From a virus, in the IMG/VR virus record IMGVR_UViG_3300035682_001576, positions 1-53,693 of that record: a stretch of 53,693 bases of DNA; one strand, 5' to 3'. Made by a program: the position numbers and the translations under genes. Below are positions 10,241 through 49,752 of this stretch, in pieces (the stretch's first letter is position 1; the number at the start of each line of letters is the position of its first letter). The notes under the pieces were generated by a model. That model ran no database searches, was not told where the DNA came from, and saw only the letters and a list, made by a program, of their open reading frames with translations.

Positions 10241-10720
10241 TTATACTACACCAACCAAATGTAGTCTATGTTGATCACTACAATTTATAAATGTATGAGC
10301 TTTAGTTGTATCAACACGCCATACAAATCCTGTTTTTAAATTTGTAAGTCGTCCAGTACGAAAAAGAAAATAACATTCTGAATTGGTTATTAACGGAATA
10401 TGAATTCTAGAAGTTTCATCTTTATGTATACTATAACATGCATATGGTCCGACCCACATTAATCTAGTTCTAAGTAGTTTGTATTTGTCAATTAATTCTT
10501 CAAATATAGTATCTTTAAAAAATGGATTTAAATTAGTATATGAAAGTTCTTCACCATTACTTTTTCCAACTGCACTAGTCCATGGATCTTCATTATCTTT
10601 ATATTGTAATCCTGTTTGTTTACCTTTATGACCGTAATCGGTCCATTGTATACTAGATTCTAATAAATTGTATGCATCTAATACTAGTTGATAGTTTATT
10701 GTTTCTAAAATTGTTATCAT
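10241..10720 (-). CDS. 2OG-Fe(II) oxygenase fold (Asp/Asn hydroxylase-like)
   Basis: 159 residues. The jelly-roll iron triad is visible as HKDE (His 99, Asp 101) and AHTFI (His 142), with HRLHL (Arg 152) as the 2-oxoglutarate binding residue. The stretch LMWVGPYACYSIHKD...IHIPLITN is typical of the aspartyl/asparaginyl hydroxylase branch. It hydroxylates a side chain or small molecule; the target is unknown. It is one of 13 proteins of this fold in the window. Confidence 0.75.
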   Translation of the reverse strand: MITILETINYQLVLDAYNLLESSIQWTDYGHKGKQTGLQYKDNEDPWTSAVGKSNGEELSYTNLNPFFKDTIFEELIDKYKLLRTRLMWVGPYACYSIHKDETSRIHIPLITNSECYFLFRTGRLTNLKTGFVWRVDTTKAHTFINCSDQHRLHLVGVV

Positions 10721-12117: not shown

Positions 12118-12833
12118 ATTATATTATGTAACATTTTTGAAATTATTTCTGCTAGATTTTGATGAGATTTTTCTCCCATATGTCTACCGTCAGATCCAAA
12201 ATCTATATTTTCAATACTACTAGCATTTGGAAAAATTTTATTAAAATCACCGTATTTAAATTCAGTGAAATTTATTTTGTGTAAATTTAAAAACTCAATA
12301 AGTTCTAGTCTAGAATTAATACTTAGTTGACTGAATTTATCTATATTACTAAGATAAATTGATTGAAATTCATACTCTTTTTTCCATAAATTATGTCTAA
12401 AATTTTTGTCAATTGTCCATGGACCTAGATGATATAATTCTTGATCTTTTATATAATACATTCTAGAATCTGGACAACTCCATTGTACTATAACATGTTT
12501 TGGTTTAATACGAAAGTTGAGAATCCATTCTTGAATATTTTTACTAATAAAATCACACCCACTGCCACCAATACTAATATTATATACTGGCATTTCTAAT
12601 AAATCTTGTAATATACTACTATATGTTTTCTCAAGAGACACAGATTCCCCTTGACTTTGACTGCATCCACACACTAACACGTAATCGGAAGTAATAGATT
12701 CTGTTGAAATGGTTCTATGATATTCGCTGTTCATTTCTGAACGATGAATTCCATTGAAACTCTCTATCTTTTCATATCTAGAGTCTCCGTAGCAATAGTT
12801 ATATTTTTTACTACCCATTATTTTTGTTATCAT
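12114..12833 (-). CDS. SGNH/GDSL-like hydrolase-fold protein
   Basis: 239 residues from ATG 12833 (AGGATC upstream, ATGA overlap). VLVCGCSQSQGESVSLEKTY, NISIGGSGCDF and VIVQWSCPD are SGNH blocks I-III with nucleophile-type Ser in GCSQ; DGRHMGEKSHQNLAE near the end gives the DxxH block with its catalytic Asp/His. Similar to the protein at 6223-6972. Probably an esterase or O-acetyl transferase on a sugar or lipid. Confidence 0.65.
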   Translation of the reverse strand: MITKIMGSKKYNYCYGDSRYEKIESFNGIHRSEMNSEYHRTISTESITSDYVLVCGCSQSQGESVSLEKTYSSILQDLLEMPVYNISIGGSGCDFISKNIQEWILNFRIKPKHVIVQWSCPDSRMYYIKDQELYHLGPWTIDKNFRHNLWKKEYEFQSIYLSNIDKFSQLSINSRLELIEFLNLHKINFTEFKYGDFNKIFPNASSIENIDFGSDGRHMGEKSHQNLAEIISKMLHNII

Positions 12834-13306
12834 ATTTTTTGATCCTGACAATATTTTTTTACAGTGTCGTAATCATAATTGTTAAATCCCATACTTAATA
12901 GATATCTAACATTGTTACCATTTCTAACCGCATGTTTCTTACGTGTGTTTAATAAGTAATATCTGTCTGATTCATACTTTAACTCAGTAACATTTTCAAT
13001 GACTTCTTCGTTATCAGTCTGATCACCATAATAGCAATTACTATCTAGTCCAGTTAGTAACAAATTAATAGCACATTGTCTACGTTCATCAGTATGAAAT
13101 CTATAAAATGTATTTGGATTCATTTTAAAAACAATAGCACTCCCATTAAATTTAAATTTAATTTTTAATAATGTTGTATCTAATAAATTGTTGGGAATTT
13201 TAAGTATGTCAAATCCGTTACTAGAAAACCATTGATCACTAGACTCAACATAATTGAGTATATTTGATTTAACTGTACTAACAGTGTTTAATGGATAGTA
13301 ATTCAT
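12830..13306 (-). CDS. 2OG-Fe(II) oxygenase-fold protein
   Basis: 158 residues. RFHTDERR (His 71, Asp 73), KKHAVRNG (His 125) and NVRYLLSMGF (Arg 134) give the metal and 2OG ligands of the Asp/Asn hydroxylase-like branch. Coupled to both neighbours through 4-bp overlaps. Confidence 0.75.
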   Translation of the reverse strand: MNYYPLNTVSTVKSNILNYVESSDQWFSSNGFDILKIPNNLLDTTLLKIKFKFNGSAIVFKMNPNTFYRFHTDERRQCAINLLLTGLDSNCYYGDQTDNEEVIENVTELKYESDRYYLLNTRKKHAVRNGNNVRYLLSMGFNNYDYDTVKKYCQDQKI

Positions 13307-13866
13307 TCTATAATATGATTAAAATATTCTTTGGGATTAAAAGTATTTACATCTTCTGGATCAAAGCATAAACTTATAATTGTTCTGAACTGTCCTTCTT
13401 GTTGTCCTTTAACTCCATGCCATGCTGGATTTACATGTATCAAATGCCATCTTTTTTCTTCAATTTGATGTTCTTCTATTACTGTAATTTTATCATCCAA
13501 GTACCAACTAGTAATAGGTTTAGAACCACCTAGTGTTAAGATATAATTAAAAGCATATTTTCGTGCATAATCTATATGTATAGGATGTACTCCTTTTCCT
13601 TGACTATGCTCAATATATTTGTTAATATGTAACATCATTTTATTTATTAATTCTGGATGTTGAGATTCTGGATCTATAATAGGTATAATATTTTTTATAA
13701 TCCAATTTTTAACTATAGGTGGCAAATAAGTTAAACTATGACTAATTCCTTCTTTTTTGTTTAATTCTAATAGTCTATTATCAGTCCAACTTAATGGAAT
13801 TAAGTTCAAACATCGTTGTTCAAATTCCACAGGTAGATTTGGCAAGTTTACATAAGTGAAATTCAT
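13303..13866 (-). CDS. 2OG-Fe(II) oxygenase-fold protein
   Basis: 187 residues. HIDYARKYAFNYIL (His 97, Asp 99), NPAWHGV (His 150) and GQFRTIISL (Arg 161). SWYLDDKITVIEEHQIEEKRWHLIHVNPAW is a typical second half of the jelly roll. Coupled by 4-bp overlaps. Confidence 0.75.
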   Translation of the reverse strand: MNFTYVNLPNLPVEFEQRCLNLIPLSWTDNRLLELNKKEGISHSLTYLPPIVKNWIIKNIIPIIDPESQHPELINKMMLHINKYIEHSQGKGVHPIHIDYARKYAFNYILTLGGSKPITSWYLDDKITVIEEHQIEEKRWHLIHVNPAWHGVKGQQEGQFRTIISLCFDPEDVNTFNPKEYFNHIIE

Positions 13867-14387
13867 GATAATATATTATTCAATCTTTCAAAGTTATTAT
13901 CTAAAAATCTAATACTAATACAATGTCTTGGATTAATATCGTTATTGACAATTCTATGTGGAATATCTACTCTAACTAAAAAAGCATCTTTGGAGTTATG
14001 TTTTGATAAAAATTTACATTCGGACTCTTTTAATTTCATATAAGATGTAGTTCCTGAAGAAACAAATTTGTCTAATTCAGTATTATTCAGTCTAGTAAAC
14101 CATTCCATTTCCCATTTTGTATTATTATTTATTACTAAATTAACCGCTCCTATGCCATTACTACTGTCATGACCATCAATATGTATTTGAAACTTCTGCA
14201 TAGGATTAGATGAGAATAACTGAACTTCTCTAACCTCACAATTTAATGATTGTAATAAGTTTAATGTTTCGTTAGATAATACTTGATCAGGAGAATATCT
14301 TTGTATTCTGTATTTTTCTACAAGTTCTGATATTTTAAACTTAGAACTCAAAGATATAGGTAAACTTAATGGTTTGAATACTAACAT
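13863..14387 (-). CDS. 2OG-Fe(II) oxygenase-fold protein
   Basis: 174 residues from ATG 14387, 5 nt after the radical SAM stop; a longer frame begins inside that gene and is unlikely. QIHIDGHD (His 69, Asp 71), DIPHRIVNN (His 144) and CISIRF (Arg 160) form the active site. It is the first oxygenase behind the radical SAM enzyme. Confidence 0.72.
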   Translation of the reverse strand: MLVFKPLSLPISLSSKFKISELVEKYRIQRYSPDQVLSNETLNLLQSLNCEVREVQLFSSNPMQKFQIHIDGHDSSNGIGAVNLVINNNTKWEMEWFTRLNNTELDKFVSSGTTSYMKLKESECKFLSKHNSKDAFLVRVDIPHRIVNNDINPRHCISIRFLDNNFERLNNILS

Positions 14388-14392
14388 TAATA

Positions 14393-15409
14393 TTACACCC
14401 AAGAAAATAACTTTTGTGACAATCCAACAGTATTCCAACGAATATCACTTTTTATTGCCCATGTTCTAAATACAGATAAAAATGCATCTGAATTTGCACC
14501 AGTAGAAAACGGTATAGATTGCCAATTATCAGTACATTCTATTATTCGTTGTGGGAATTTTAACATATTACAATGATCTGGATATACAATAGGAAAACCA
14601 TTAAATGAATATTTTTTACTCCAATATTCGTTTGCTGTATGATAGTTTTGAAATGTAAATGGAGTTATAGAATAGTTGATAGACAAGTTAGTATGTTGTG
14701 TCAATACTGTTATATTATTCAATAGTTCTGTCCAACTTGCACCTCTTCTGAACCATTCGTAAGTATCTTCAAATCCATCAACACTCACACTACATTTAAT
14801 TTCGCGCCATCCTTCCCATAAGTCAATACGAGGTTTGACTAATCCGTTTGTGATGTACTGTATTTCACAATGACTACGATCAACATGTTTTAATCTATCA
14901 AGTAGTTTCCAATGATCTGGGTCTAAGAACGGTTCTCCACCACTAAATTTAAGTACAGTGATATTTGGTAATAATTCTATTAGTTCTTCAACAAATTTAT
15001 TAGTAATTTCAAATGCTACTTTAACATGTGGAGTTATATTTAATACTTTTGCCCAAGTACTACTACGATCAGGCCCACAATGAGCACATGCCAATTGACA
15101 TTTGTTGCTCATTTTAAATTGTAGAACTTTTAATTCTCTAGTATCACTAATAAACTTAGTTGACGTTCGCATACTAGGTTGATTGTTAACTTCAAGTTGT
15201 TCGCATCTACCACAATAATTTTTAGTTTTTTCAGAATATCCGTCTATGAGATTATTTCGCAAATCTAATAGACGATGATGATTAAAAGCATTTTTAATAC
15301 CATCATCTATAGAAATAATTTTGGCCAGATCAGATGTTTCTAAACAGCAAGGACGTGTCCATCCGTCTGTTTCAATACTCATCATATTTTCTACCCATGC
15401 ACACTTCAT
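14393..15409 (-). CDS. Radical SAM enzyme (twitch/SPASM-like)
   Basis: 338 residues. MSNKCQLACAHCGPDRSS holds the CxxxCxxC motif for the [4Fe-4S] cluster that cleaves SAM; FSGGEPFL is the GGE SAM-binding motif. The N-terminal CCLE and YCGRC cysteines may hold an auxiliary cluster, as in the twitch-domain radical SAM proteins of cyanophages. It probably modifies a peptide or small molecule. It leads the oxygenase/SGNH operon and is driven from a late promoter. Confidence 0.85.
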   Translation of the reverse strand: MKCAWVENMMSIETDGWTRPCCLETSDLAKIISIDDGIKNAFNHHRLLDLRNNLIDGYSEKTKNYCGRCEQLEVNNQPSMRTSTKFISDTRELKVLQFKMSNKCQLACAHCGPDRSSTWAKVLNITPHVKVAFEITNKFVEELIELLPNITVLKFSGGEPFLDPDHWKLLDRLKHVDRSHCEIQYITNGLVKPRIDLWEGWREIKCSVSVDGFEDTYEWFRRGASWTELLNNITVLTQHTNLSINYSITPFTFQNYHTANEYWSKKYSFNGFPIVYPDHCNMLKFPQRIIECTDNWQSIPFSTGANSDAFLSVFRTWAIKSDIRWNTVGLSQKLFSWV

Positions 15410-25096: not shown

Positions 25097-25696
25097 ATGA
25101 AATTTAATGGAAATATAAACACTTTATCAACTATTACTAATAGTGATGTTTTATCACTATTACAAATTAAACTTAATAATTATGATTGGGATCATGATCC
25201 ATGTTTATTATACAACAAAGAAAAAGATGTAGCATTTAATGATAGTTACTGTATTCAATTTACTCCAAGTTCATTGATGTGTCATATTCGTTCAACTTAT
25301 AAACAAAATTATACAGAATCCACATTAGAACTTACTAAACTTGGAGATATAATTTCATCAGAAATTCATCAATTGTTCCCAGATCATTACCATCTTAAAA
25401 GTCATTTTGTTGCTATTATCCCACATGGAAAACAAATACGACATACTGATGAATCATTTTATCATAGATATTCCAAAAGATTAGTTGTTCCTATTATTAC
25501 CACTAATTTATCATATACAAATTTTGATAATGATATATATACACTTGAAGTCGGTACAATTTATGAAATGAATAATCGTGTGCCACATTGGAGCGAAAAT
25601 AATGATGATGAGATTAGAGTATTTCTATTCATGGATTTAATTTCTCCAATAAATTTACAAATTATAAAAAATCATTATAAATATTATCATGAGTAA
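25097..25696 (+). CDS. 2OG-Fe(II) oxygenase fold (Asp/Asn hydroxylase-like)
   Basis: 199 residues. QIRHTDESF (His 116, Asp 118), RVPHWSENN (His 164) and EIRVFLF (Arg 174) form the active site; SHFVAIIPHGKQIRHTD...LVVPIITT is the usual Asp/Asn-hydroxylase frame. Predicted leaderless late mRNA. It overlaps the following HNH gene by 8 nt. Confidence 0.75.
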   Translation: MKFNGNINTLSTITNSDVLSLLQIKLNNYDWDHDPCLLYNKEKDVAFNDSYCIQFTPSSLMCHIRSTYKQNYTESTLELTKLGDIISSEIHQLFPDHYHLKSHFVAIIPHGKQIRHTDESFYHRYSKRLVVPIITTNLSYTNFDNDIYTLEVGTIYEMNNRVPHWSENNDDEIRVFLFMDLISPINLQIIKNHYKYYHE

Positions 25697-30779: not shown

Positions 30780-32153
30780 CTACTTAACCACCCACCAACA
30801 AGCGCCAATAAATCCCACTTTAGTAAGTAATTCATTTACTGATCGTCTGACAGGTAAATGTGGATAATCATGTCCACTAATTATACCACCCTTTTTTACT
30901 TTTGGTAACCATGATATAATATCTTGTTTAACACTATCATAATCATGTGCCGCATCAATAAATACAAAATCCAAACTATTATCTAAATATGTTTCTGCAG
31001 CCTCAATACTAGACATTCTTTTAGCATTATAGTAACCTTCAACTGGTTTCATGTTTGAAATAAACACTTCATACAATTGATTATTAACTACATCCGAATC
31101 CTCAAATGATTGACCCTGTTGATGTTCTTCACTACCCTGCCAAGTATCTACACAATCAAATGTGATTGATTTGCCACTGTTGACAATTTCAACCGCCATG
31201 TAACTACTACTACGACCTTTATAACTTCCAATTTCTACAAAATGAGCGGGACCAGAAAACTTCTCTAACATCTTTCTGAGAAAAATAAAATCATGATCAT
31301 TAAAAAATCCATCAATCTTTTTATAAAAATGTGGAATATGTTTAACAACACAATTTTTATCAAATGCCAATAGAAAATCTTTTGGTAATGTATTCTTATC
31401 AAACTTGATAAATTGATTGTCTAATCTTCCAAATAAATCTTTACCCTGTTCAATAGCAGATTGAATATTTTCAATACTATTATATTGTTCTGTATTATAT
31501 TCCTGATGAGCAAAACTATTTAATTTAGTTTTAATATGTTCTACATCACCCCAATAACTTAAATGCCAACCACCATTTGAAATTCCAGATAGTGTATTTC
31601 TATTTGATCTAAACCATTGCGGACCGCGTTGTTTCATATTTTTAACAGTAGTAACAACTGATCCAGACCATGAATTAACTTGTTTCTGATTAAAGTTATA
31701 ATAAAACATATCTTGAATCAGTGAAAGTGCATATTCTTCATTTACTACATAGTTTAATTGTCTGACACTTTCTTTAATGGCAGTAATATTTGGTATTTCA
31801 TCTACATCACTAATAATAACAATATCATCATCTTTAAATAATTTAATCGCCTGAGAAATATGATTACGTTGAGCATTTTCAACCGCCCATTGTGGTGAAA
31901 ATGATTCAGTACGTTGAGATTTTATATTCCAATTATACTGACTAGCATCAATTGATAATGGAAAATATAATATTTTTTTGGAATATTTTCTATATCTGTC
32001 AATGTTATTGGCATAATTTAATGATTTAGATTTTCCACTGTGGGTGATATCACTTTCAACTATAACAAAATAGTCTACAGTATCATATAGATATTTCAAT
32101 CTACCTTCTAGAATATCATACTCATTGAAAAACATAAAACAATCTATTATCAT
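30780..32153 (-). CDS. GT17 glycosyltransferase fused to SAM methyltransferase
   Basis: 457 residues. Residues 1 to ~275 follow the GT17 (beta-1,4-GlcNAc transferase) pattern: MIIDCFMFFNEYDILEGRLKYL..., VIVESDITHSGK and VIISDVDEIPN (the DxD metal site). From ~290 a second domain begins: HFVEIGSYKGRSS (SAM loop), FVFIDAAHDYDSVKQD and GGIISGHDYP, a class I methyltransferase of the Methyltransf_24 type. One protein could add and then methylate a sugar on capsule, LPS or virion glycan. It sits in the tRNA array between tRNA-Pro and tRNA-fMet. Confidence 0.82.
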   Translation of the reverse strand: MIIDCFMFFNEYDILEGRLKYLYDTVDYFVIVESDITHSGKSKSLNYANNIDRYRKYSKKILYFPLSIDASQYNWNIKSQRTESFSPQWAVENAQRNHISQAIKLFKDDDIVIISDVDEIPNITAIKESVRQLNYVVNEEYALSLIQDMFYYNFNQKQVNSWSGSVVTTVKNMKQRGPQWFRSNRNTLSGISNGGWHLSYWGDVEHIKTKLNSFAHQEYNTEQYNSIENIQSAIEQGKDLFGRLDNQFIKFDKNTLPKDFLLAFDKNCVVKHIPHFYKKIDGFFNDHDFIFLRKMLEKFSGPAHFVEIGSYKGRSSSYMAVEIVNSGKSITFDCVDTWQGSEEHQQGQSFEDSDVVNNQLYEVFISNMKPVEGYYNAKRMSSIEAAETYLDNSLDFVFIDAAHDYDSVKQDIISWLPKVKKGGIISGHDYPHLPVRRSVNELLTKVGFIGACWWVVK

Positions 32154-40022: not shown

Positions 40023-40955
40023 TCAGAGATTTTTTATCTTTTTTGTCTCAAGATCACTAAGACTCCAACACTGATTTGTTACACATAATACAGGTTCAGT
40101 GGTGATTTCAAAATCGGTATATATTGACCCAACTTTTCTTCTCTGAGCACACATACTATCAAACATATTTCCATTCCAACCAATATCTAGATGTTTAGTT
40201 TGATTATAGCATGTCCATCCAGTAAAATCATTATCTTGTGAAGTTAATAATTCAGCCGGACTTGTTGAATGTATTTTAACATTATCTTTATTATAAAATC
40301 CAATTGTTTTAAATGTTGATATTTCAATATTATCATTGATCCACGTAAGTTGATCTTTGGTATAAGTTGATAATAGTTTTGAAGTTTTGGATCCAAAATT
40401 TTCTACTAATGGTTTAATATTTACTGATATATTGTTGTTTAGTAATTCATGGTATGATGTCACACAGTCGGCCCATCTATCAGGAATCATGGTTAAATTA
40501 ACCGATCCATTCTTTTTTTTATCATGATAAATTAATTTTGCGGTTTTTAAAAATCTATCTAAATTAGCAAATTCAGTATGAAATGTCAAAGTTACTGCAT
40601 GTAGATTATCTATAATTCTTTCCCAGAACGGGTATGGTCTAGATCCGTTTGATATTACACTAAGTTGTATATTACTGGGAACTTCATTGACTATTCTTTC
40701 AAACTCTGGATGAAAAGTTGGTTCTCCACCAGTAAATTTAATATGAGTTTCCATTGGCATCTTAGATAATTTGTCAATTGTTCTTTGAATCACATCAATT
40801 GGTTGATATTTAACTGATCCATCATGAAACATACTAGGACAATAACTACAATGATAAGTACATATATTGCCCAAAGACCAATAAACATAGAATCTTTGTC
40901 TATTTTTATTTTCAATATAGTATACTGATTCATCATTTAGTTTAAAAGTTGACAT
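40023..40955 (-). CDS. Radical SAM enzyme with SPASM-like C-terminus
   Basis: 310 residues. NICTYHCSYCPS holds CxxxCxxC, FTGGEPTFHPE the GGE motif, and the C-terminus has spaced Cys (WTCYNQ, DSMCAQ, VLCVTNQCW) for auxiliary clusters. SPASM enzymes modify peptides or sugars. It opens the metabolic island and shares architecture with 14393-15409, which likewise accompanies 2OG oxygenases. Confidence 0.87.
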   Translation of the reverse strand: MSTFKLNDESVYYIENKNRQRFYVYWSLGNICTYHCSYCPSMFHDGSVKYQPIDVIQRTIDKLSKMPMETHIKFTGGEPTFHPEFERIVNEVPSNIQLSVISNGSRPYPFWERIIDNLHAVTLTFHTEFANLDRFLKTAKLIYHDKKKNGSVNLTMIPDRWADCVTSYHELLNNNISVNIKPLVENFGSKTSKLLSTYTKDQLTWINDNIEISTFKTIGFYNKDNVKIHSTSPAELLTSQDNDFTGWTCYNQTKHLDIGWNGNMFDSMCAQRRKVGSIYTDFEITTEPVLCVTNQCWSLSDLETKKIKNL

Positions 40956-40975
40956 TTAGGATCCTTATTAATATA

Positions 40976-40983
40976 TATTTATC
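40976..40983 (-). promoter_or_regulatory. T4-type late promoter of the radical SAM gene
   Basis: GATAAATA on the minus strand, ~20 nt before the ATG, with AAGGATCC ribosome site between. Confidence 0.65.
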
Positions 40984-41025
40984 ATTACAAATAACGTAAC
41001 TATTTTTGTTGTATTATAATGACAG

Positions 41026-41033
41026 TATAAATA
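41026..41033 (+). promoter_or_regulatory. T4-type late promoter
   Basis: TATAAATA, 28 nt before TTG 41062; AGGGA lies in the leader. Confidence 0.6.
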
Positions 41034-41061
41034 GTATTATAAAATCACTGTAGGGAATATT

Positions 41062-41679
41062 TTGACTAATTTACATCATAAACTGCTTGGCACTCTTCCG
41101 ATTGAGATAGTTGAAAAATTAAAATCAATGATTCTCAAACATCATGATGATCAAACTACAAAAAAATTTCAAAGAATTGAATTTGATGAAGAAATTTTAA
41201 ATTATCTCAAGACTTTAATAGTCTCTGATATGATAGTTCAAAAAAGTATAGATGGGAAAATGCATATTCAAAAAGTATTCTATAGTGAATCTGATTTTGT
41301 TTATCCTATTCATAAAGATGGAGTTAAATGTCGTAGTGCGTTAAACATTGTTTTACAGTGTAATGATGATGATTGGACTAGATGGTATGATGATACTACT
41401 GTTTTATCAGAAACTGAAACTCAAACAAAATTTTCTACTAGCGGATTTTCATCTCGTGATACTTCTTTATCTGTTAATGTCATTGAAAATTTGAAATTTG
41501 TTGAAGAATTTAAAAGTAAAGTCGGAGATGTTTATCTAATTGACGTAGATACTTTTCACACTTGGAAATGTTCTGGTCCAAATTCTCGTATAGTAATTCA
41601 GACTAAGTTTGCAGGATTTCCAACATTTGATCAACTATGTCATAAAATTTCGTTTGATAATATTATAATTAAACAGTAA
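41062..41679 (+). CDS. 2OG-Fe(II) oxygenase-fold protein (TTG start)
   Basis: 205 residues, starting at TTG after GTAGGGAATATT. YPIHKDGVKCRSALNI (His 84, Asp 86), DTFHTWKC (His 166) and SRIVIQTKF (Arg 176). A close paralogue of 44872-45489, sharing CNDxDWxRWYDD, FYSxS and VDTFHxxKC; the two face each other across the desaturase region. Confidence 0.75.
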   Translation: MTNLHHKLLGTLPIEIVEKLKSMILKHHDDQTTKKFQRIEFDEEILNYLKTLIVSDMIVQKSIDGKMHIQKVFYSESDFVYPIHKDGVKCRSALNIVLQCNDDDWTRWYDDTTVLSETETQTKFSTSGFSSRDTSLSVNVIENLKFVEEFKSKVGDVYLIDVDTFHTWKCSGPNSRIVIQTKFAGFPTFDQLCHKISFDNIIIKQ

Positions 41680-41763
41680 GTAATACATTGTAATTTTCCA
41701 ATGATTTTTAATATATGATAAATATATATACAATGTATTGTATATAATATACAATGTATTGTA

Positions 41764-41771
41764 TATAAATA
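41764..41771 (+). promoter_or_regulatory. T4-type late promoter
   Basis: TATAAATA, 23 nt before ATG 41795. It follows an AT-rich imperfect repeat (TACAATGTATTGTATATAA). Confidence 0.6.
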
Positions 41772-41794
41772 CTTTTGTTAATAATGAGGATAAT

Positions 41795-42112
41795 ATGTAT
41801 CATACTGTAACTGTCACAATCAAACGACCAAATATATATTCTAATTTTTGGTATGAATCTGAGTATTATCAATCGATCAGATTAGAAGTTTTAACATTGT
41901 TTAATAAAGCTGTTGATAATCAACAAATCTTAGATTTTTATCAAAATGAATCATCTGATCAATTGGTATTTACTAGATTTACTATATTCAAAGATGAAGA
42001 ATCTAAAATCACATTTATGAATGAATTTGATAAAAAATTTACCGAGTACGATATAAATCGTCAGACTTATTGTTCAGATAATGAACATAATTTAACAATA
42101 ACTGAAGAGTAA
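41795..42112 (+). CDS. Hypothetical 105-residue protein
   Basis: MYHTVTVTIKRPNIYSNFWYESEYYQSI..., alternating strands and helices with a second TRFTIFKDEESKITFMNEFD half, so a small ferredoxin-like fold is possible. GAGGATAAT precedes the ATG; the longer frame from 41738 crosses the promoter. It is coupled to the desaturase gene 2 nt downstream. Confidence 0.6.
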   Translation: MYHTVTVTIKRPNIYSNFWYESEYYQSIRLEVLTLFNKAVDNQQILDFYQNESSDQLVFTRFTIFKDEESKITFMNEFDKKFTEYDINRQTYCSDNEHNLTITEE

Positions 42113-42114
42113 TA

Positions 42115-42885
42115 TTGTTGAATAATGTGTTTTCCGTTTCAAAAAAATCACTTATATTATATCAAATATTAGCACACTGTGCATTCATTATAATGTTATT
42201 GTACGGGACTGTCATTGAATGGTCTATTGCATTAGGAATTTATATATTGATAAGCACAGTTGGCGGAACCGTTATCTATCATAGACTATTATCACATAAA
42301 TCATTTAATTCTCCAAAGTGGTTTGAATACATAGGTACAATATTGGCCACCATTGGTGGAAACGGAAGCGGCATTACTTGGGCTGCTATTCACAGAGAAC
42401 ATCATCGTTATACTGATCAGAAAAAAGACCCACACTCTCCTAAATATCATGGATACTTTAAGGTTCAATTTTTGTCAATGTTAGATAAACCTAACATAAG
42501 ATACGTTCCAGATTTACTAAGATCAAAATTTCATACGTGGATGCATCAATATTATTGGATAGTTAACATTGTTTATGTAATTACAATAATGTTATTTGAT
42601 CCGTTTGCTATAATTTATGCTTATTTTGTTCCTACTCTTATGGTATGGCATGCGGGAAGTTTGATCAATACATTAAATCATTCAATTGGTTACAGTAATT
42701 ATAAAGTTAACAATGATAGTACTAATAATATTATAACTGGTTACTTAGTAGGAGGTGAAGGGTGGCATAATAATCATCATGCCGAACCTGCCAACCCTAA
42801 TTTTGGCAGACGCTGGTGGGAGTTTGATTTAGGATATTTAATTATTAAACTAGTAGATCAAAAATCACTTGAGTTAAAATCTTGA
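42115..42885 (+). CDS. Membrane fatty-acid desaturase
   Basis: 256 residues (TTG start). Four membrane segments and all three histidine boxes: HRLLSH (56-61), HREHH (93-97) and HNNHH (218-222), plus NTLNH. This is the Delta9-type acyl-CoA/acyl-lipid desaturase family with a di-iron site. A second desaturase is encoded 4 kb away. Substrate could be host lipid or an acyl chain on the phage ACP. Confidence 0.9.
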   Translation: MLNNVFSVSKKSLILYQILAHCAFIIMLLYGTVIEWSIALGIYILISTVGGTVIYHRLLSHKSFNSPKWFEYIGTILATIGGNGSGITWAAIHREHHRYTDQKKDPHSPKYHGYFKVQFLSMLDKPNIRYVPDLLRSKFHTWMHQYYWIVNIVYVITIMLFDPFAIIYAYFVPTLMVWHAGSLINTLNHSIGYSNYKVNNDSTNNIITGYLVGGEGWHNNHHAEPANPNFGRRWWEFDLGYLIIKLVDQKSLELKS

Positions 42886-43623
42886 TTTCTTTTTAAAGGG
42901 AATCAAATCATCTAATCCATTGACCCCTATTACTAAATGAACTCTATCTGAGTTGCCTTTATTAATAGCAAAATGTTCAAATCCCACATTTATATAATAT
43001 AGATGACCATCTGATGGAATATGAAAATATTCAAAATCAGATTTTGGATTTTTTCTAATGGCAATATAACATTCATCATTAGTTTCCAGTGCTAAATGAT
43101 ATCTAACTCCATATCCTACATTGTTATCAATATGTGGTTTAATATCAGCGCCTGATTTCAATCTAGCAAATCTTGCACGAGTTACTTTGTTTTTGAAACT
43201 ACTTAATATCTGTTTAGTATACTCAAGATCATCAATGAACGATCTAAATTTTCCGTAATTCTTTTCATTTTGTTCAGCAACGATTTCTAATACATCTTTT
43301 TTGTATCTACCGTATTTTTGATTGAGACTTTTATCGGCAATTTCTTCTACAGTTTGTTCTGAAATTCCAACATATGTTTCTTTGTCAAATTCAGTCAGTA
43401 CTATTTGATTATAACTACTGAATGATCCATCCGGGTCGGCAAATTTTGCAAGAAGATGCTCTCTGTTCTTTATTAGAGATTCATAATACTTTGTTTCCGG
43501 ATTAATATCCAGCCAATTATTTCTAGTTTCTAACACCGACAGTTCTCTTTTGAGCAAGTTCAAATCTATCTTCATCGGCATTTTTTGAAACAGTGGAAAA
43601 TCTTTTCTGTCTAGTTTGTTCAT
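42874..43623 (-). CDS. 2OG-Fe(II) oxygenase fold (Asp/Asn hydroxylase-like)
   Basis: 249 residues. An N-terminal helical domain (1-145) precedes RFARLKSGADIKPHIDNN (His 164, Asp 166), VGFEHFAIN (His 217) and SDRVHLVIGV (Arg 227). Overlaps the desaturase gene tail to tail by 12 bp and its upstream neighbour by 4. Confidence 0.75.
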   Translation of the reverse strand: MNKLDRKDFPLFQKMPMKIDLNLLKRELSVLETRNNWLDINPETKYYESLIKNREHLLAKFADPDGSFSSYNQIVLTEFDKETYVGISEQTVEEIADKSLNQKYGRYKKDVLEIVAEQNEKNYGKFRSFIDDLEYTKQILSSFKNKVTRARFARLKSGADIKPHIDNNVGYGVRYHLALETNDECYIAIRKNPKSDFEYFHIPSDGHLYYINVGFEHFAINKGNSDRVHLVIGVNGLDDLIPFKKKSRF

Positions 43624-44252
43624 GATTTAAATAATCCGCTTTTTGCATGGCTTTTAAGTTCTTCAAAACTAATTCCAAAATTTACTATTAAATGAACTCT
43701 GGCTAATGTTGAGTTATTAATAACCCCATGAAGTACATTTGTATTTATAGCATAACATTTGCCTGATTCAAAATAATATCTATCTATCTTTTTAGTATCT
43801 AAATTATGTCCCAACATGATATTGTCACTATTGGTTATGATGGGCCAATGAACTCGTGTGATATTTTCCGTATAATCATCAGTATGTAATGCTATCTTTT
43901 TACCAGGATCTATTTTGGCAAATCTAGCTCTATGAGGCAAAAATTTAAATCTATCAAATAATTCTTTTATATAATCATGAACATGATGTGTATGATTGGT
44001 CATTAATTGCCAATTGATATCAGACTCTTTTTTATTTCTCGTTCTACTTATATCTTGATAAATCTTTAAACTGTCCAGTTCTGGAGAGTCGCTTTTTTCA
44101 AAACTGGTTAACCCAATACCATAAAATCCTTGATATTTTTCATCAAATTGAGTATATGATGACCAAGTCTCACTATTTAAGTAACTAATACATTGTGAAA
44201 TATCAATAGAACTATTTGAAATTTCAAAACAAAATTTTTCATTAAGACTCAT
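43620..44252 (-). CDS. 2OG-Fe(II) oxygenase fold (Asp/Asn hydroxylase-like)
   Basis: 210 residues. RARFAKIDPGKKIALHTDDY (His 123, Asp 125), NVLHGVINN (His 175), LARVHLIVNFG (Arg 185). Same RARFA.....G..I..H.D lead as the next gene, so the pair arose by duplication. Confidence 0.75.
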   Translation of the reverse strand: MSLNEKFCFEISNSSIDISQCISYLNSETWSSYTQFDEKYQGFYGIGLTSFEKSDSPELDSLKIYQDISRTRNKKESDINWQLMTNHTHHVHDYIKELFDRFKFLPHRARFAKIDPGKKIALHTDDYTENITRVHWPIITNSDNIMLGHNLDTKKIDRYYFESGKCYAINTNVLHGVINNSTLARVHLIVNFGISFEELKSHAKSGLFKS

Positions 44253-44850
44253 AAAAATCGTATCCTTGAGTTCTCTTGTCGTGAGGTAAAGTATATCTAA
44301 TTACCACTCGTTTTAACTCACTGATGGTATTACCCAACAACATGTTATGAGTGTTAAAAGATGACTGAATTCCAGATTCAATCACCTCTTCCACAGTCAC
44401 CACGTAATCTTTATATTTTGTCCATAATGAACTAAAACCTAAATTTTTTCTTTTTTTGTTTTTAATCGGCCAATGATCTTCTGCTCTAACATAATAAAAA
44501 GTATAATATCCTTTTGATTCCATATCATCTACTACATGATTTAATAAATCTATAACACCACTGTTTTTTAAAGTAAAATACGTGAGACATCCTCTAAGAA
44601 CAAAGAAATTTGAAATGGTATAATACGGCAATGATTTCCATGGAGTAGATGTCAAAAAAGATAATAATTTATCATCAACAAAATAACCAAAAATCACACT
44701 ATTGAATTTAATTAAATTGTCAATCTTTTTTAATGAATGATTTGAAATATCCGAATCTTGTCTCATAAGAGACACACTGTTGGAAATGATGTTTAACATC
44801 TGAGTTCTATCTGATTCAGAATCTAAATTTAGTTGTCTAATATCATTCAT
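44242..44850 (-). CDS. Acyltransferase-like (GNAT-fold) protein
   Basis: 202 residues. VIFGYFVDDKLLSFLTSTPWKSLPYYTISNFFV gives the GNAT beta2-beta4 sheet, GVIDLLNHVVDDMESKGYYTFYYVRAEDHW the helix and strand 5. No classic Q/RxxGxG/A loop is visible, so the acyl donor may not be acetyl-CoA. Similar in size and layout to 47478-48068. Assignment is by pattern, not motif. Confidence 0.5.
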   Translation of the reverse strand: MNDIRQLNLDSESDRTQMLNIISNSVSLMRQDSDISNHSLKKIDNLIKFNSVIFGYFVDDKLLSFLTSTPWKSLPYYTISNFFVLRGCLTYFTLKNSGVIDLLNHVVDDMESKGYYTFYYVRAEDHWPIKNKKRKNLGFSSLWTKYKDYVVTVEEVIESGIQSSFNTHNMLLGNTISELKRVVIRYTLPHDKRTQGYDFYES

Positions 44851-44871
44851 TGATTCAATCTCTTTAACTAA

Positions 44872-45489
44872 TTATTTATTCACATATTCAGTAGACATTA
44901 AGTTTTTAAAACTAGTTTGAGTTAGAGATTTATTTATAGTATGAAAATCAGGAAATCCATCAAATTTAGTTTGAATTATAATTCTTGGTTCAGAACCTAT
45001 ACACTTAAAACTATGAAATGTATCTACATCAAGAGTATATACGTCTCCAATTTCAGTATGTAATTCTTCTATATATTGAATATTTTCATAGTTATATATT
45101 TTTAAATTTCTGGATCTAGATTCAACTGTTTCTATTTCTACGTTTAGACTATTAATAACATCATCATCGTACCAACGAACCCAATCTGAATCATTACAAC
45201 TGATTGCTATATTTAATGCACTTTTACACATTGTTCCGTCGCGATGAATTCTGAATCCATGACCTGAGTCACTGTAAAAAGCTTTTTGTATATATCTATT
45301 ATTTTCAGAATCGTATTGAATTTTTAATTCTGTATTATCAAATATTGAATTGAAATAATTATTCAAATTTTTGTCAAACTGAATCCATTGATATGGATTA
45401 TTTGTTTTTTTCAATTGTAATAATTGATTTTTAAAATTGTCAATAATATTCATTGGCAACTTACCTAGTTTGTTATAATATTTTGACAT
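44872..45489 (-). CDS. 2OG-Fe(II) oxygenase-fold protein
   Basis: 205 residues, paralogue of 41062-41679. RIHRDGTMCKSALNI (His 82, Asp 84), DTFHSFKC (His 159), PRIIIQTKF (Arg 169). A CATAAATA late-type box lies at 45513-45520, ~23 nt before the ATG. Confidence 0.75.
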   Translation of the reverse strand: MSKYYNKLGKLPMNIIDNFKNQLLQLKKTNNPYQWIQFDKNLNNYFNSIFDNTELKIQYDSENNRYIQKAFYSDSGHGFRIHRDGTMCKSALNIAISCNDSDWVRWYDDDVINSLNVEIETVESRSRNLKIYNYENIQYIEELHTEIGDVYTLDVDTFHSFKCIGSEPRIIIQTKFDGFPDFHTINKSLTQTSFKNLMSTEYVNK

Positions 45490-45536
45490 TGAACAATTTG
45501 ATTGATTAATGATATTTATGATTTAAATTAACTCTA

Positions 45537-45544
45537 GATAAATA
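45537..45544 (+). promoter_or_regulatory. T4-type late promoter, 5 nt before ATG
   Basis: GATAAATATTAATATG: octamer, 5 nt, ATG 45550. The identical 16-mer starts the gene at 46661 on the other strand. Confidence 0.7.
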
Positions 45545-45549
45545 TTAAT

Positions 45550-46104
45550 ATGATTATTAATTCTGAATTCTATTGGAAACACATTGACATTGATGATTAC
45601 GACAATGTAATAGACGAAATTCGATACTGCATCTCAGACGAACTTAAAAGTACTGTATATAGAAATGGATTTGATATATATAAAAATAAAAGTAAATTTC
45701 AAGAACGATGTGGTCTTTTTATGAATTGGATGTCTAAACATTCATTAAAGATAAGAAAAATTGCCGTAATTAAATTTCCACCTAATAGAATTCAGAATAT
45801 ACACAGAGATAGTCTAGAAGATTTAACTAATACGTATGGATTAAATTTAAATTTATACAATTGTGAAAATAGCTATACTAGAATGTTTGAATTAATTAAT
45901 AAAAATTATGTTCCAGTAACATCGTATACACCATCCGGTCTACCATTTATACCGTATCCTGATTCTCAATGTCGAGAAGTGACTAGATATAATTTAGCTA
46001 AACCAGTATTGTTAGATTTAAATAAACTTCATTCAGTGGTTAATAATACAAATGATACAAGAATAAGTATATCAATCAGATTTACCACTCAACCAGATTT
46101 ATGA
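45550..46104 (+). CDS. 2OG-Fe(II) oxygenase-fold protein
   Basis: 184 residues. IQNIHRDSLE (His 85, Asp 87), LNKLHSVVNN (His 161) and TRISISIRF (Arg 171). Predicted leaderless late mRNA. It converges on another oxygenase gene whose stop is 5 bp away. Confidence 0.75.
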   Translation: MIINSEFYWKHIDIDDYDNVIDEIRYCISDELKSTVYRNGFDIYKNKSKFQERCGLFMNWMSKHSLKIRKIAVIKFPPNRIQNIHRDSLEDLTNTYGLNLNLYNCENSYTRMFELINKNYVPVTSYTPSGLPFIPYPDSQCREVTRYNLAKPVLLDLNKLHSVVNNTNDTRISISIRFTTQPDL

Positions 46105-46109
46105 TTCAA

Positions 46110-46661
46110 TTAAGATAAATCAGTTATATAATCTTTAAATATTATAAGAGATTCTGCCATAGTTACTCTTTTAAAAGTAAATTTATGTATAGGTACTAAA
46201 CTTACACATAATCTATCCTCGGTTACATCAATAATATTATGTGGAATTCCAACTTGTACAATTGTAGGATTGTAAACTTTAGTTCGTTCTATTTCTTTAA
46301 CTTCATTGAAAGTGTAAATAATACTCTTAGTATTAGTAGATGTGGTATTTACTGGTTTGTCTTTTTTGTCAAGAATTTCATACCAACACATCTGAGATTC
46401 TCCACTTCCATATATCCAATTTAGTTTGATATAATCTCCACCTAAAGAGTCAACATGAATTCCTCCACTATGACCGGCGGCTTTAAAAAATGTCTCAGCA
46501 AAAGTTATTTTTAAATTTAACGAATCAAAAAATGATAATAGTTCTTTGTTTAGAAATTCATAATGATTCAATGTATGAATCATACTTTTTGGTATATCAT
46601 CAATTGATTTTTCATCTTTAAAAAGAGAAATATTTAAATTCAAAAAGCAAAAGTTTTTCAT
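46110..46661 (-). CDS. 2OG-Fe(II) oxygenase-fold protein
   Basis: 183 residues from ATG 46661 (MKNFCFLNLNISLFKDE). GGIHVDSLGGDYIKLNWI carries the HxD motif, QVGIPHNIID the second His, EDRLCVSLV the Arg. The start at 46676 lies inside the late promoter; ATG 46661 follows GATAAATA by 5 nt, within the end of the desaturase gene. Confidence 0.75.
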   Translation of the reverse strand: MKNFCFLNLNISLFKDEKSIDDIPKSMIHTLNHYEFLNKELLSFFDSLNLKITFAETFFKAAGHSGGIHVDSLGGDYIKLNWIYGSGESQMCWYEILDKKDKPVNTTSTNTKSIIYTFNEVKEIERTKVYNPTIVQVGIPHNIIDVTEDRLCVSLVPIHKFTFKRVTMAESLIIFKDYITDLS

Positions 46662-46662
46662 A

Positions 46663-47481
46663 TTAATATTTATCATTTAAAAATGGTAAAAATATTCTGG
46701 CCGGATCCCATTCCCACCAATGACCACTCACACCAGTTCCAAAATCATATGATTTTGGATCATAATGATGATTGTTATGCCAGCCCTGACCCCAACCTAG
46801 ATAGCCCAATAATATATTATTATGACTATTATCTTTTGTATCAAAGTTTCTATATCCAATTAATCCTTTATCATGTCCAAATACATTAATTAAATTGTCT
46901 TGTGTCACACCAATAAATGTTACTAACCAAAATGCACATAAAGCCAATCTCCAATCAAATAATGCCACTATTAGTGGTACACCCCAACAAACTCGTAATA
47001 TATTTTTATGAAACCATATATGATTAGACTTACGTAATAAATCAACAGCATACTTTAGATTAACTGAATCCGTCATTTCTGTTCGTTTAGACTGCCAACC
47101 AATAAATGCATGATATTTTCCATATATTACTGGACTGTGTAGATCCTGTACTTGATCGCTAAATCTGTGATGATAACCTCTATGTACGGCAACCCAGAAT
47201 ATGCTGGCACCTTGACCAGCAAATGAAGCAAAAAATAAAATAATATTTTCTTTCCATCTTGGTAAATCATGAGTTTTATGACTGAATATTCTGTGATAAC
47301 CAACAGCAATGCCCAGACCACATACCAACATCCACATTATTAATGTTGACCATAGATAATATAGTGGAATAATTCCAATAGTCAATAATATTATTGTCAA
47401 AAGTCCTAATATTATTGCCGGTACAAATTGAAACCAAAATGTTTTTGAAATTGTTGTTAAGAATTTAGAGAGTTTTTTCAT
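46663..47481 (-). CDS. Membrane fatty-acid desaturase (second)
   Basis: 272 residues. Hydrophobic segments at 18-60 and ~165-200; histidine boxes HRIFSH (63-68), HRGYHH (100-105) and GWHNNHH, plus NVFGH. Same family as 42115-42885 but only distantly similar, so the two probably act at different positions or chain lengths. GGTGGAAATAT precedes the ATG, which overlaps the acyltransferase-like gene. Confidence 0.88.
   Translation of the reverse strand: MKKLSKFLTTISKTFWFQFVPAIILGLLTIILLTIGIIPLYYLWSTLIMWMLVCGLGIAVGYHRIFSHKTHDLPRWKENIILFFASFAGQGASIFWVAVHRGYHHRFSDQVQDLHSPVIYGKYHAFIGWQSKRTEMTDSVNLKYAVDLLRKSNHIWFHKNILRVCWGVPLIVALFDWRLALCAFWLVTFIGVTQDNLINVFGHDKGLIGYRNFDTKDNSHNNILLGYLGWGQGWHNNHHYDPKSYDFGTGVSGHWWEWDPARIFLPFLNDKY
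46667..46674 (-). promoter_or_regulatory. T4-type late promoter, 5 nt before ATG
   Basis: Minus-strand GATAAATATTAATATG; octamer inside the last codons of the desaturase gene. Confidence 0.65.
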
Positions 47482-48068
47482 ATATTTCCACCTACTGGCA
47501 ATTGTGTTCTATATTCTTGTTTTAAATAACTACAGCGAACTATAGAATCTTCTGGTAATAATAGTCTATGATATAATAATTCCCAATGATTAGTATAGTA
47601 ACTTTTACATCTTGCTGGAACAATACATTCATCAAAATAACCATATCGTTCATTATTATATTCACTATAGCTGAATTTTCTAAGTAATTTAGTATGTTTT
47701 TGATTAACCAATGTATAAAATTTTAATCGGCCATTGGCTTCATTATAACTTATAATTTTATCTAAAATTGATTTTAACAATTGATTATTACCGCTACTTC
47801 TACACATTGTATAATACCAAGCTGGCTCTTCTACGCTCTCATAGAATGACACTGTAGCAGTAACAACGTCATCTTCTATATAACCATAGGCATGAAAATT
47901 CTTAAGATCACTTAGATAATTTGCACAGAATCTATCATAAATCAACTGATTTAATCCTTCGTCAGCCATCATAAATGAGTCTAAATTATCTACACCCATA
48001 TATTTTTTGTGAGTAAATAATTTTTTAATTAATTCGGTATGTGTACTATCTAGTTTAACTACTGACAT
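47478..48068 (-). CDS. Acyltransferase-like (GNAT-fold) protein
   Basis: 196 residues from ATG 48068. FHAYGYIEDDVVTATVSFYESVEEPAWYYTMCRS and LLKSILDKIISYNEANGRLKFYTLV follow the GNAT sheet-helix order, but the CoA loop is degenerate. It sits between the PP-loop protein and the desaturase in one operon with ACP, so an acyl-ACP donor is plausible. Confidence 0.5.
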   Translation of the reverse strand: MSVVKLDSTHTELIKKLFTHKKYMGVDNLDSFMMADEGLNQLIYDRFCANYLSDLKNFHAYGYIEDDVVTATVSFYESVEEPAWYYTMCRSSGNNQLLKSILDKIISYNEANGRLKFYTLVNQKHTKLLRKFSYSEYNNERYGYFDECIVPARCKSYYTNHWELLYHRLLLPEDSIVRCSYLKQEYRTQLPVGGNI

Positions 48069-48069
48069 A

Positions 48070-48987
48070 TTATTTTCCAAATAATTGTTGTTGTAAATCA
48101 GTGATGAATATTCCATCTAAACTGTTTTCCAATCGTTTGACATGACTCTTATACAATACATTATAAGTTTCTACATTGAATCCCATAAGTTTTTCATATC
48201 CATGTGTTTTTTTCTTGTCAATAATTGATGGCATCATACTTTGTAAAATATCATTTTTTGAACTAACACTAGACATTTTATAATTATGTTTATCATTTAT
48301 TAATCGTTGAATATTAGGATGTTCTAAATAATATCCCATCATTTCTGGTGTATAACTAAACCATTCATTGACCAATGGTATATTGTATTTTAAACTAAAT
48401 CGCATGGCACTGGCATCTTCATTCTCACGAAAGCAATAATACCATTGACTGCCATTGATATCAACATGCCGTCTGAGCATCATTTCACCACCCATAATAG
48501 CCGGATGACCTAATTTTAAAATATTATGATATACAGTTAAATATGCCATTTGTCTGCATTGAATGATTTCACTAAATTCATATGCTTGACCACTGTTGTA
48601 GAACTCTTTAACATCAAATTCAATGACTTCAAGTTTAATGTCTAATTCTCTGGTAATAGTCTCAGCTATCTTTAAATCTTCAATGTTATAATCGTTTTTG
48701 AATTTAATAAATATTGATCGTGGTGTAATACCAACATGTTTAAAAGCTCTGAGTACAATCTCACTATCTGTTCCCCCACTAAACATTACAACTAAATCAG
48801 ATCCAAAATCATCATATATTAAATTAGCTGTTCTATATTGTTCATTAAGCCAAGAACTTTTTTTATAATAATCATGATCTATTGAACCACAAGACACTGA
48901 AAACTTTTCATATGGATTTAATCTGATTCCATATAATCTATCATCAATATTATATTTCAAATGATTGTCAAGTGTAAAATTATACAT
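48070..48987 (-). CDS. PP-loop ATP pyrophosphatase (Asn-synthase-like)
   Basis: 305 residues. VVMFSGGTDSEIVL (SGGTDS, 70-75) is the PP-loop that binds ATP and releases PPi while adenylating a substrate, as in asparagine synthase, NAD synthetase and tRNA-thiolating enzymes. MGGEMMLRRH and DKKKTHGYEKL are later conserved-looking stretches. No glutaminase domain is present, so the amine or sulfur comes from elsewhere. Its ATG overlaps the ACP stop (TAATG): ACP and PP-loop protein are translationally coupled. Confidence 0.8.
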   Translation of the reverse strand: MYNFTLDNHLKYNIDDRLYGIRLNPYEKFSVSCGSIDHDYYKKSSWLNEQYRTANLIYDDFGSDLVVMFSGGTDSEIVLRAFKHVGITPRSIFIKFKNDYNIEDLKIAETITRELDIKLEVIEFDVKEFYNSGQAYEFSEIIQCRQMAYLTVYHNILKLGHPAIMGGEMMLRRHVDINGSQWYYCFRENEDASAMRFSLKYNIPLVNEWFSYTPEMMGYYLEHPNIQRLINDKHNYKMSSVSSKNDILQSMMPSIIDKKKTHGYEKLMGFNVETYNVLYKSHVKRLENSLDGIFITDLQQQLFGK

Positions 48988-49220
48988 TACATTAAATTAA
49001 TCAAGTCTCTGACAGTTGTAGGTGATTTAAGAGCATCTGGAAATTCCACATTAAACGCTTCTTCATATTCAACTTGAAGTTCAATAATATCCAAAGAATC
49101 CAGACCTATATTATATAGATTGTCATCAATTGATACTTTAAAATTTTTATCAAATAATTTAGATAATGATGTATGTAAAAACTCTAATTTTTCTGATTCA
49201 GTTGTTGGTTTGTTTGTCAT
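48987..49220 (-). CDS. Acyl carrier protein
   Basis: 77 residues from ATG 49220, the size of a stand-alone ACP. The phosphopantetheine site is GLDSLDIIELQ with Ser 42; IDDNLYNIGLDSLD...EYEEAFNVEFPD...TVRDLI is the standard four-helix pattern. It would be loaded by a host phosphopantetheinyl transferase. The longer frame to 49370 overlaps the upstream gene heavily and is rejected. An ACP next to desaturases, acyltransferases and a PP-loop adenylating enzyme implies acyl-thioester chemistry. Confidence 0.88.
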   Translation of the reverse strand: MTNKPTTESEKLEFLHTSLSKLFDKNFKVSIDDNLYNIGLDSLDIIELQVEYEEAFNVEFPDALKSPTTVRDLINLM

Positions 49221-49752
49221 ATTCTGCTGTCCATTGTTCGGTATAATATATTGTATGTTTGCCAATTGGTTTAAAACGTTTATAAATATCTGGCCAATCA
49301 TTGAACAATACTGTTCGTTTATTCTGACTAACTCTCTCAAAGTATTTATAAATGGAATAATTATGATCATTGACAGTGACCCAAAGTTTGGAATAATTAA
49401 TAGATTCTTGAATCATCTTAGGTAATATGGTATTGCCAATAATATATTGTGCTCTAAACTTGGGAGTAATATACATTCTAGTTAATAACAATGCCACACT
49501 TGAATCTAAATCATATTCATTCCATCCTGCACTACACACATACTTATCGCTATCATCAGTGATCACGAAATATTTACCATGACCACGATGATAACGACCT
49601 TGATCTAAAATATAAAATAAATTACCAGAAATATTACTGTAATCTGGATGATAATTTTTGATAATATTTACATCATTGATATCTAACAGACCATGTTTAA
49701 GAATGTCAATTACTGTTTGATTACTTAGATCGTGTATTTCGTGTATTTTCAT
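49198..49752 (-). CDS. GNAT-family acyltransferase
   Basis: 184 residues. KYFVITDDSDKYVCSAGWNEYDLDSSVALLLTRMYITPKFRAQYIIGNTILPKMI shows the beta2-beta4 strands and a motif-A-like R.....GN.LL helix; YSKLWVTVNDHNYSIYKYFERV is the beta5-alpha4 part (N.....Y...G-like). It opens the ACP operon and overlaps the ACP start by 23 nt. Confidence 0.68.
   Translation of the reverse strand: MKIHEIHDLSNQTVIDILKHGLLDINDVNIIKNYHPDYSNISGNLFYILDQGRYHRGHGKYFVITDDSDKYVCSAGWNEYDLDSSVALLLTRMYITPKFRAQYIIGNTILPKMIQESINYSKLWVTVNDHNYSIYKYFERVSQNKRTVLFNDWPDIYKRFKPIGKHTIYYTEQWTAEYDKQTNN

Follow-up and report, generated by a model that had tools for sequence, protein, structure and literature searches.

A mobile phage cassette with a predicted stand-alone asparagine-synthetase-type domain, GNAT-fold proteins and a membrane desaturase

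Do the enzyme genes crowded into one part of a viral genome work together, and if so, what might they make? The question is raised by positions 40023-49752 of IMG/VR record IMGVR_UViG_3300035682_001576, a viral stretch of 53,693 nt referred to here as the window. This region encodes one radical SAM protein, six 2-oxoglutarate (2OG)-fold oxygenases (OG1-OG6), two SCD-type desaturases (DES1, DES2), three GNATs, one PP-loop protein (PPL) and one acyl carrier protein (ACP). An earlier interpretation, the sequence-only reading, had seen in the region a possible new biosynthetic module. We find that this holds for a part of it: PPL, GNAT2 and a desaturase (DES) form a fixed core, to which GNAT3 and ACP are added in many phages. 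The radical SAM gene, OG1, OG2, OG4-OG6, DES1 and GNAT1 are not fixed members and assort loosely.

Conservation and co-inheritance of the cassette

In the window the cassette is read from the minus strand in the order GNAT3-ACP-PPL-GNAT2-DES2, with OG6 following, and its genes overlap or abut (Table 1). ACP has its start codon within the 3' end of GNAT3 and its stop codon in overlap with the start of PPL; GNAT2, whose conserved start is at 48068, abuts PPL. GNAT2 and DES2 overlap in an ATGA, and DES2 and OG6 overlap by 14 nt. These junctions bear out the single coupled operon of ACP, PP-loop protein, GNAT and desaturase that had been proposed. The extent of ACP in Table 1 is the real one, as the listed open reading frame (ORF) starts too early.

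An alignment-based scan of IMG/VR yielded 234 stretches with PPL relatives, from which 80 loci were kept; dereplication at 85% PPL identity left 58 for a position profile. Among these dereplicated loci, GNAT2 is the gene directly after PPL in 51 of 54 and the desaturase is the second gene downstream in 37 of 53, while an alternative order, with the desaturase immediately upstream of PPL, occurs in 10 of 57. PPL is usually preceded by ACP or GNAT3: ACP lies directly upstream in 22 of 57 loci, and GNAT3 occupies position -2 in 21 and position -1 in 11. Beyond positions -2 to +3 no family is found in more than five of the 58 loci, and the flanks are not conserved. The GNAT3-ACP-PPL-GNAT2-DES order recurs between contigs that have diverged by about 50% in protein while their flanks differ, and its recurrence is therefore beyond chance. 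The same block is reached from other starting points. A reciprocal search with GNAT2 alone retrieved 61 loci. PPL immediately precedes GNAT2 in 56 of them and is separated from it by one gene in another two, and the last three contain little sequence upstream of GNAT2; DES is nearby in 53. Loci retrieved via GNAT3, a family present in 52 loci, or via DES2 were mostly the same block. The carriers are many uncultured, mostly large viruses of bacteria, on contigs of up to 524 kb.

Pairwise divergence of PPL is correlated with that of GNAT2 (Spearman 0.64), ACP (0.47), DES (0.44) and GNAT3 (0.35), and all four correlations reach the permutation floor of 0.005; for two neighbours of the cassette, the cell-wall hydrolase (0.00) and the baseplate gene (-0.04), there is no correlation. 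Since the genes of the cassette diverge together and the baseplate and lysis neighbours do not follow them, the cassette moves as a unit; it is mobile and co-inherited as a block. Compared with the nearest relative, PPL, GNAT2 and DES2 have dN/dS values of 0.06-0.07, below those of the flanks. The cassette is under purifying selection, with its predicted enzyme folds and, as far as the alignments go, its key residues intact. The synteny search that the sequence-only reading had suggested, with independent assortment as the point at issue, thus returned a co-inherited core among loosely assorting accessory genes. A chance pile-up in a hypervariable region is a true description of the accessory genes listed above; for the five-gene core it is refuted by the position profile, the correlated divergence and the reciprocal GNAT2 search, and as an account of the cassette we give it hardly any credence.

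At the sensitivity of the pattern used, about 85,000 GTDB bacterial and archaeal species genomes yielded no PPL relative, and neither did the plasmids searched; a bacterial or plasmid origin of PPL was set aside at that sensitivity. The named phage records searched held no direct homologue of PPL, ACP or GNAT2.

Predicted activities of the core proteins

The PP-loop protein, recognised earlier by its SGGTDS motif, is predicted to have an asparagine-synthetase-type fold. When its AlphaFold model (pLDDT 95.3) was compared by VIA, it matched human ASNS (Z 15.6, 257 residues, 3.7 A), beta-lactam synthetase (14.6) and carbapenam synthetase (13.8), with lower scores to LarE (10.6) and NAD synthetase (10.4); against AsnB and beta-lactam synthetase, 245-258 residues aligned at 3.7-4.2 A. 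The VIA match list cannot exclude other PP-loop families, and absence from it was not used as evidence. QueC, LarE and MnmA identities were rejected as weak, motif-only matches, structurally inferior to the asparagine-synthetase group. Within the SGGxDS motif S70, G71, G72, D74 and S75 are invariant among relatives, and a profile comparison (hhalign) with AsnB of E. coli K-12 covers the PP-loop region and pairs E168 with Glu348, a pairing that MAFFT does not give. A glutaminase domain with its Cys1 is not present: PPL starts MYNFT, and the approximately 45 residues before the synthetase domain are too short for one. Judged by its model, PPL is a stand-alone asparagine/beta-lactam-synthetase domain, an amide-forming activator of carboxylates.

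The fold of GNAT2 is clearly that of a GNAT in its AlphaFold model (pLDDT 88), which retrieved dozens of GNATs in Foldseek and VIA (VIA Z 12-14.5), and the protein is a near-obligate partner of PPL. The other two GNAT-like proteins noted earlier also stood, GNAT1 by homology (GNAT2 profile match at 1.6e-16) and GNAT3 by the family matches of its relatives (Pfam Acetyltransf_1 in 11 of 35, best 3.9e-5; the window's own copy has no match). A profile comparison of GNAT2 with GNAT3 gave no significant match, and the two are therefore taken as separate GNAT families. Acyl-ACP-using GNAT families of the LuxI, FeeM or OlsB type were not among the Pfam matches listed at E<=1.

The stand-alone ACP with an intact DSL site was likewise upheld. 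It is canonical, matching a PDB ACP at 3.1e-10; an ACP lies near PPL in 31 of 80 loci, with DSL kept in 31 of 31, and where present it is just upstream of PPL in nearly all. At L084:9234-10001 a single 255-aa ORF is a natural GNAT3-ACP fusion, which supports cooperation of these two proteins. Domains of the asparagine-synthetase type adenylate a carboxylate and are known for forming amides rather than thioesters, so that for PPL amide formation is more likely than ACP loading. According to the other possibility, PPL would adenylate a fatty or amino acid and pass it on to the thiol of phosphopantetheine, so that a dedicated acyl-ACP would be available to be desaturated. Acyl-ACP loading for desaturation is performed by JamA-JamB-JamC, with a ligase different from PPL, and the PPL and ACP genes are adjacent and overlapping in nearly all ACP-bearing loci. 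However, PPL persists unchanged in phages that have no ACP, and this, together with the amide chemistry of its relatives, makes loading by PPL improbable.

Both membrane desaturases that had been noted are FA_desaturase matches with invariant His ligands. The DES family profile matches mouse SCD1 (4ymk) at 2.8e-30, with the ligands H63, H68, H100, H104, H105, H203, H235, H238 and H239 invariant and N199 nearly so; DES2 is thus predicted to be an SCD-type membrane fatty-acid desaturase with a complete ligand set. One may ask whether the desaturase acts on its own, as an auxiliary gene fluidising host membranes, with PPL and the GNATs as unrelated neighbours. Phage desaturases do occur without PPL, in L024, in L028 and L029 (relatives of DES1) and in Pelagibacter phage Mosig, and viral desaturases have been described already: lipid desaturases in cyanophages (cited in PMC11480375 and PMC8224337) and an acyl-CoA desaturase in a Nitrospirota virus (PMC7678222). 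DES nevertheless adjoins PPL-GNAT2 in most dereplicated loci. Because this adjacency occurs in two orders and the divergence of DES is correlated with that of PPL, DES is unlikely to be an unrelated gene, and we regard membrane remodelling as the sole function as unlikely.

The possible product and the accessory enzymes

With these assignments in mind, one may tentatively propose that the mobile cassette builds an unsaturated N-acyl amino-amide or aminolipid in the infected host, a plausible reading that we would not yet call probable. According to this proposal, a GNAT would take an acyl chain from a carrier, either the phage ACP primed by host AcpS or a host acyl-ACP or acyl-CoA, and attach it to an amino acid or polyamine through the amine. 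PPL, having no glutaminase, would adenylate a carboxylate and use an amine or free ammonia to form a second amide bond. Unsaturation of the acyl part would be the task of the membrane desaturase, and the 2OG enzymes, as frequent tailoring enzymes, may also hydroxylate it. Acyl transfer, amide closure, desaturation and hydroxylation, as well as substrates and product, are what we infer from the gene set. The steps of the sequence-only reading, in which an acyl chain is loaded, desaturated, hydroxylated and transferred to an amine, also fit the fold assignments, except that loading by the PP-loop protein is less likely than amide formation and that ACP is dispensable. A bolder extension, which we place on the unlikely side, is that phages carry a horizontally moving, natural-product-like pathway for a new class of unsaturated N-acyl amides, acting as a signal, membrane agent or competitor inhibitor during infection, and that this pathway relies on an amide synthetase family which the search of bacterial genomes did not turn up.

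Several observations weigh against the N-acyl amide proposal. The alignment places AsnB Lys449 on PPL K260 only with an uncertainty of one residue. About 60% of loci lack ACP, and it is not hidden elsewhere in their contigs: Pfam detected none in 44 of 46 ACP-less records, contigs of 145-524 kb included, and the ACP family profile found none in 36 such records while detecting four of four positive controls. On the PPL tree at least eight gains or losses of ACP are needed. Being absent from most loci and so often gained or lost, ACP is not obligatory; it is probably accessory and replaceable by host ACP or CoA. No AcpS was found in the ACP-bearing contigs, so that a host enzyme must prime ACP, and no chain-making gene is seen in the cassette, so that the acyl chain would be supplied by the host. 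A PF01648 (AcpS-like) gene does lie at 219742-220011 (L139) of the L135 record, a 231 kb contig without detectable ACP.

The oxygenases add a further point on that side. The closest PDB relatives of the AAH family profile are L-proline cis-4-hydroxylase and a beta-hydroxylase, and the Asp/Asn hydroxylases of the window resemble amino-acid hydroxylases as much as lipid hydroxylases. A non-lipid product is therefore a live rival. In this case the target would be a small amine or a free amino acid, which the cassette would hydroxylate, amidate or acylate; the result might be, for instance, a small effector or a precursor with which virions or glycans are decorated. The substrate of the "desaturase" would be a small acyl unit bound to a carrier or to the membrane. 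PPL resembles activators of amino-acid carboxylates, and the islands often contain TauD and radical SAM enzymes, observations that both suit such a product. On the other hand, the closest solved relatives of DES are all acyl-CoA desaturases or alkane hydroxylase, and co-inheritance of the cassette does not extend to the baseplate gene beside it. We thus consider the amino-acid or amine product rather unlikely.

Around the cassette, 51 loci have Asp/Asn-hydroxylase-type oxygenases and 33 have a TauD oxygenase. In the DES-PPL-GNAT2 subclade these genes often follow the cassette directly; such adjacency is found in some subclades only. All six 2OG proteins of the region (seven had been counted earlier; a seventh was not found in 40023-49752) have HxD...H...R, just two of the six reach Pfam, and OG6 is homologous to OG5 and OG1 by an iterated hidden Markov model search. 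The radical SAM protein was confirmed as such; the SPASM domain that had been ascribed to it was not detected by Pfam, and SPASM does occur in a related family of radical SAM proteins from other loci. Prokaryotic viperin was rejected for this protein, as the PADLOC pVip match (3.4e-14) covers only residues 23-126, a generic core, and a defence-system reading was set aside as well, the PADLOC matches being generic QueC and radical SAM cores only.

Elsewhere in the window there is a second oxygenase/radical SAM cluster, with Asp_Arg_Hydrox genes at 10241 and 25097 (25097-25696), a run of three 2OG-like ORFs side by side at 12830-14438 and the window's second radical SAM gene at 14393-15409. Richness in oxygenases is therefore a property of the whole phage. 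A separate family of 376-400 aa SGGADS proteins, distant from PPL and possibly a second synthetase-like family, is common in the islands and often multicopy (L003:14146-15333, L003:16548-17711 and 27 other loci). A radical SAM protein of about 500 aa with a weak B12-binding match also recurs (L130:19391-20899; family in 26 loci), and TctC-like periplasmic binding proteins are present in two islands (L024:8274-10810, L078:16487-17356); in L024 the TctC-like protein and a NeuD-like acyltransferase adjoin a DES2 relative without PPL. The window further contains rIIA (about 33% identity to T4-like phages), rIIB, a baseplate-like gene, 32 tRNAs and, at 30780-32153, a methyltransferase fused with a glycosyltransferase family 17 domain.

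Table 1. Genes of the region 40023-49752, from the first cassette gene onwards
Gene	Position	Strand	Assignment and remarks
GNAT3	49198..49752	-	GNAT-fold acyl/acetyltransferase (predicted); first cassette gene
ACP	48987..49220	-	Stand-alone, 77 aa; DSL phosphopantetheine site; PF00550 1.2e-7
PPL	48070..48987	-	305 aa; asparagine/beta-lactam-synthetase-type PP-loop (N-type ATP-PPase) domain (predicted), SGGTDS, without glutaminase
GNAT2	47478..48068	-	GNAT-fold transferase (predicted); conserved start is Met17 of the listed ORF
DES2	46663..47481	-	Membrane di-iron desaturase, stearoyl-CoA-desaturase type (predicted); PF00487 7.4e-11
OG6	46110..46676	-	2OG-fold oxygenase, HVD...H...R; accessory, position not conserved
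OG5	45550..46104	+	2OG-fold oxygenase, HRD...H...R; accessory
OG4	44872..45489	-	2OG-fold oxygenase, HRD...H...R; accessory; family in 24 loci
GNAT1	44242..44850	-	GNAT2 homologue; accessory
OG3	43620..44252	-	Asp/Asn beta-hydroxylase-type 2OG oxygenase; PF05118 3.2e-10; family in 51 loci
OG2	42874..43623	-	Asp/Asn beta-hydroxylase-type 2OG oxygenase; PF05118 6.6e-13
DES1	42115..42885	+	Second desaturase; PF00487 3.7e-19; accessory
OG1	41062..41679	+	2OG-fold oxygenase, HKD...H...R; accessory
Radical SAM protein	40023..40955	-	PF04055 1.4e-11; CxxxCxxC at residues 32-39; accessory

Relation to known systems

PPL has the SGGxDS ATP motif and, in its model, the entire fold of the synthetase domain (Z 13-15.6) in common with asparagine synthetase B and the beta-lactam and carbapenam synthetases, and hhalign sets one of its Glu residues against AsnB Glu348. 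Unlike them, it stands alone at 305 aa, without the N-terminal glutaminase and Cys1, and in an acyl-lipid gene context.

Single parts of the cassette have been seen in phages before. Lipid desaturases of cyanophages (Roitman et al. 2018, cited in PMC11480375 and PMC8224337) and the acyl-CoA desaturase of a Lake Baikal virus (PMC7678222) are phage-encoded like DES; in the passages that deal with them they are treated without a PPL or GNAT partner, whereas DES here belongs to a conserved multi-enzyme cassette. Two co-isolated Prochlorococcus cyanophages encode ACP, ACP synthase and Asn hydroxylases (PMC3037559), and combine ACP, Asp/Asn hydroxylases and a TauD oxygenase in one genome, as the cassette phages do. 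The isolated Pelagibacter phage Mosig EXVC030M (MT647606, 54.7-61 kb) has an island with a desaturase, two Asp_Arg_Hydrox, TauD, a GNAT and a radical SAM-type (MoaA-like) protein; unlike in the cassette phages, no PPL or GNAT2 match was found in it, and none of the named phage records searched holds a PPL-GNAT2 cassette. The desaturase of "Acinetobacter phage MD-2021a" (CAKLQH020000002.1, L036) was rejected as a named-phage homologue: it sits among trpA (tryptophan synthase), accD (acetyl-CoA carboxylase) and other host genes, and the region is probably host DNA contaminating a phage collection. In agreement with the sequence-only reading, which knew of no phage pathway with this set, the literature searched yielded no description of the gene combination, only single phage desaturases or ACPs, or other reports.

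The same kinds of parts are found, as an analogy only, in the ornithine-lipid pathway (OlsB, OlsC/LpxO and the OlsE hydroxylase). OlsB is an acyl-ACP-dependent N-acyltransferase of this pathway (PMC3972451), and LpxO/OlsC are lipid hydroxylases of the Asp/Asn-hydroxylase family (PMC5767591), which provides precedents for the N-acylation and lipid hydroxylation steps. The cassette differs in having an amide synthetase added, and the OlsB family was not detected among the Pfam matches listed.

Most described phage auxiliary metabolic genes are single host-derived enzymes. A multi-enzyme set inherited as a block, including an amide synthetase for which a pattern search of about 85,000 bacterial and archaeal species genomes gave no close relative, points instead to a dedicated phage small-molecule or lipid product. 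The cassette thus extends the known auxiliary metabolism of phages, with potential for more.

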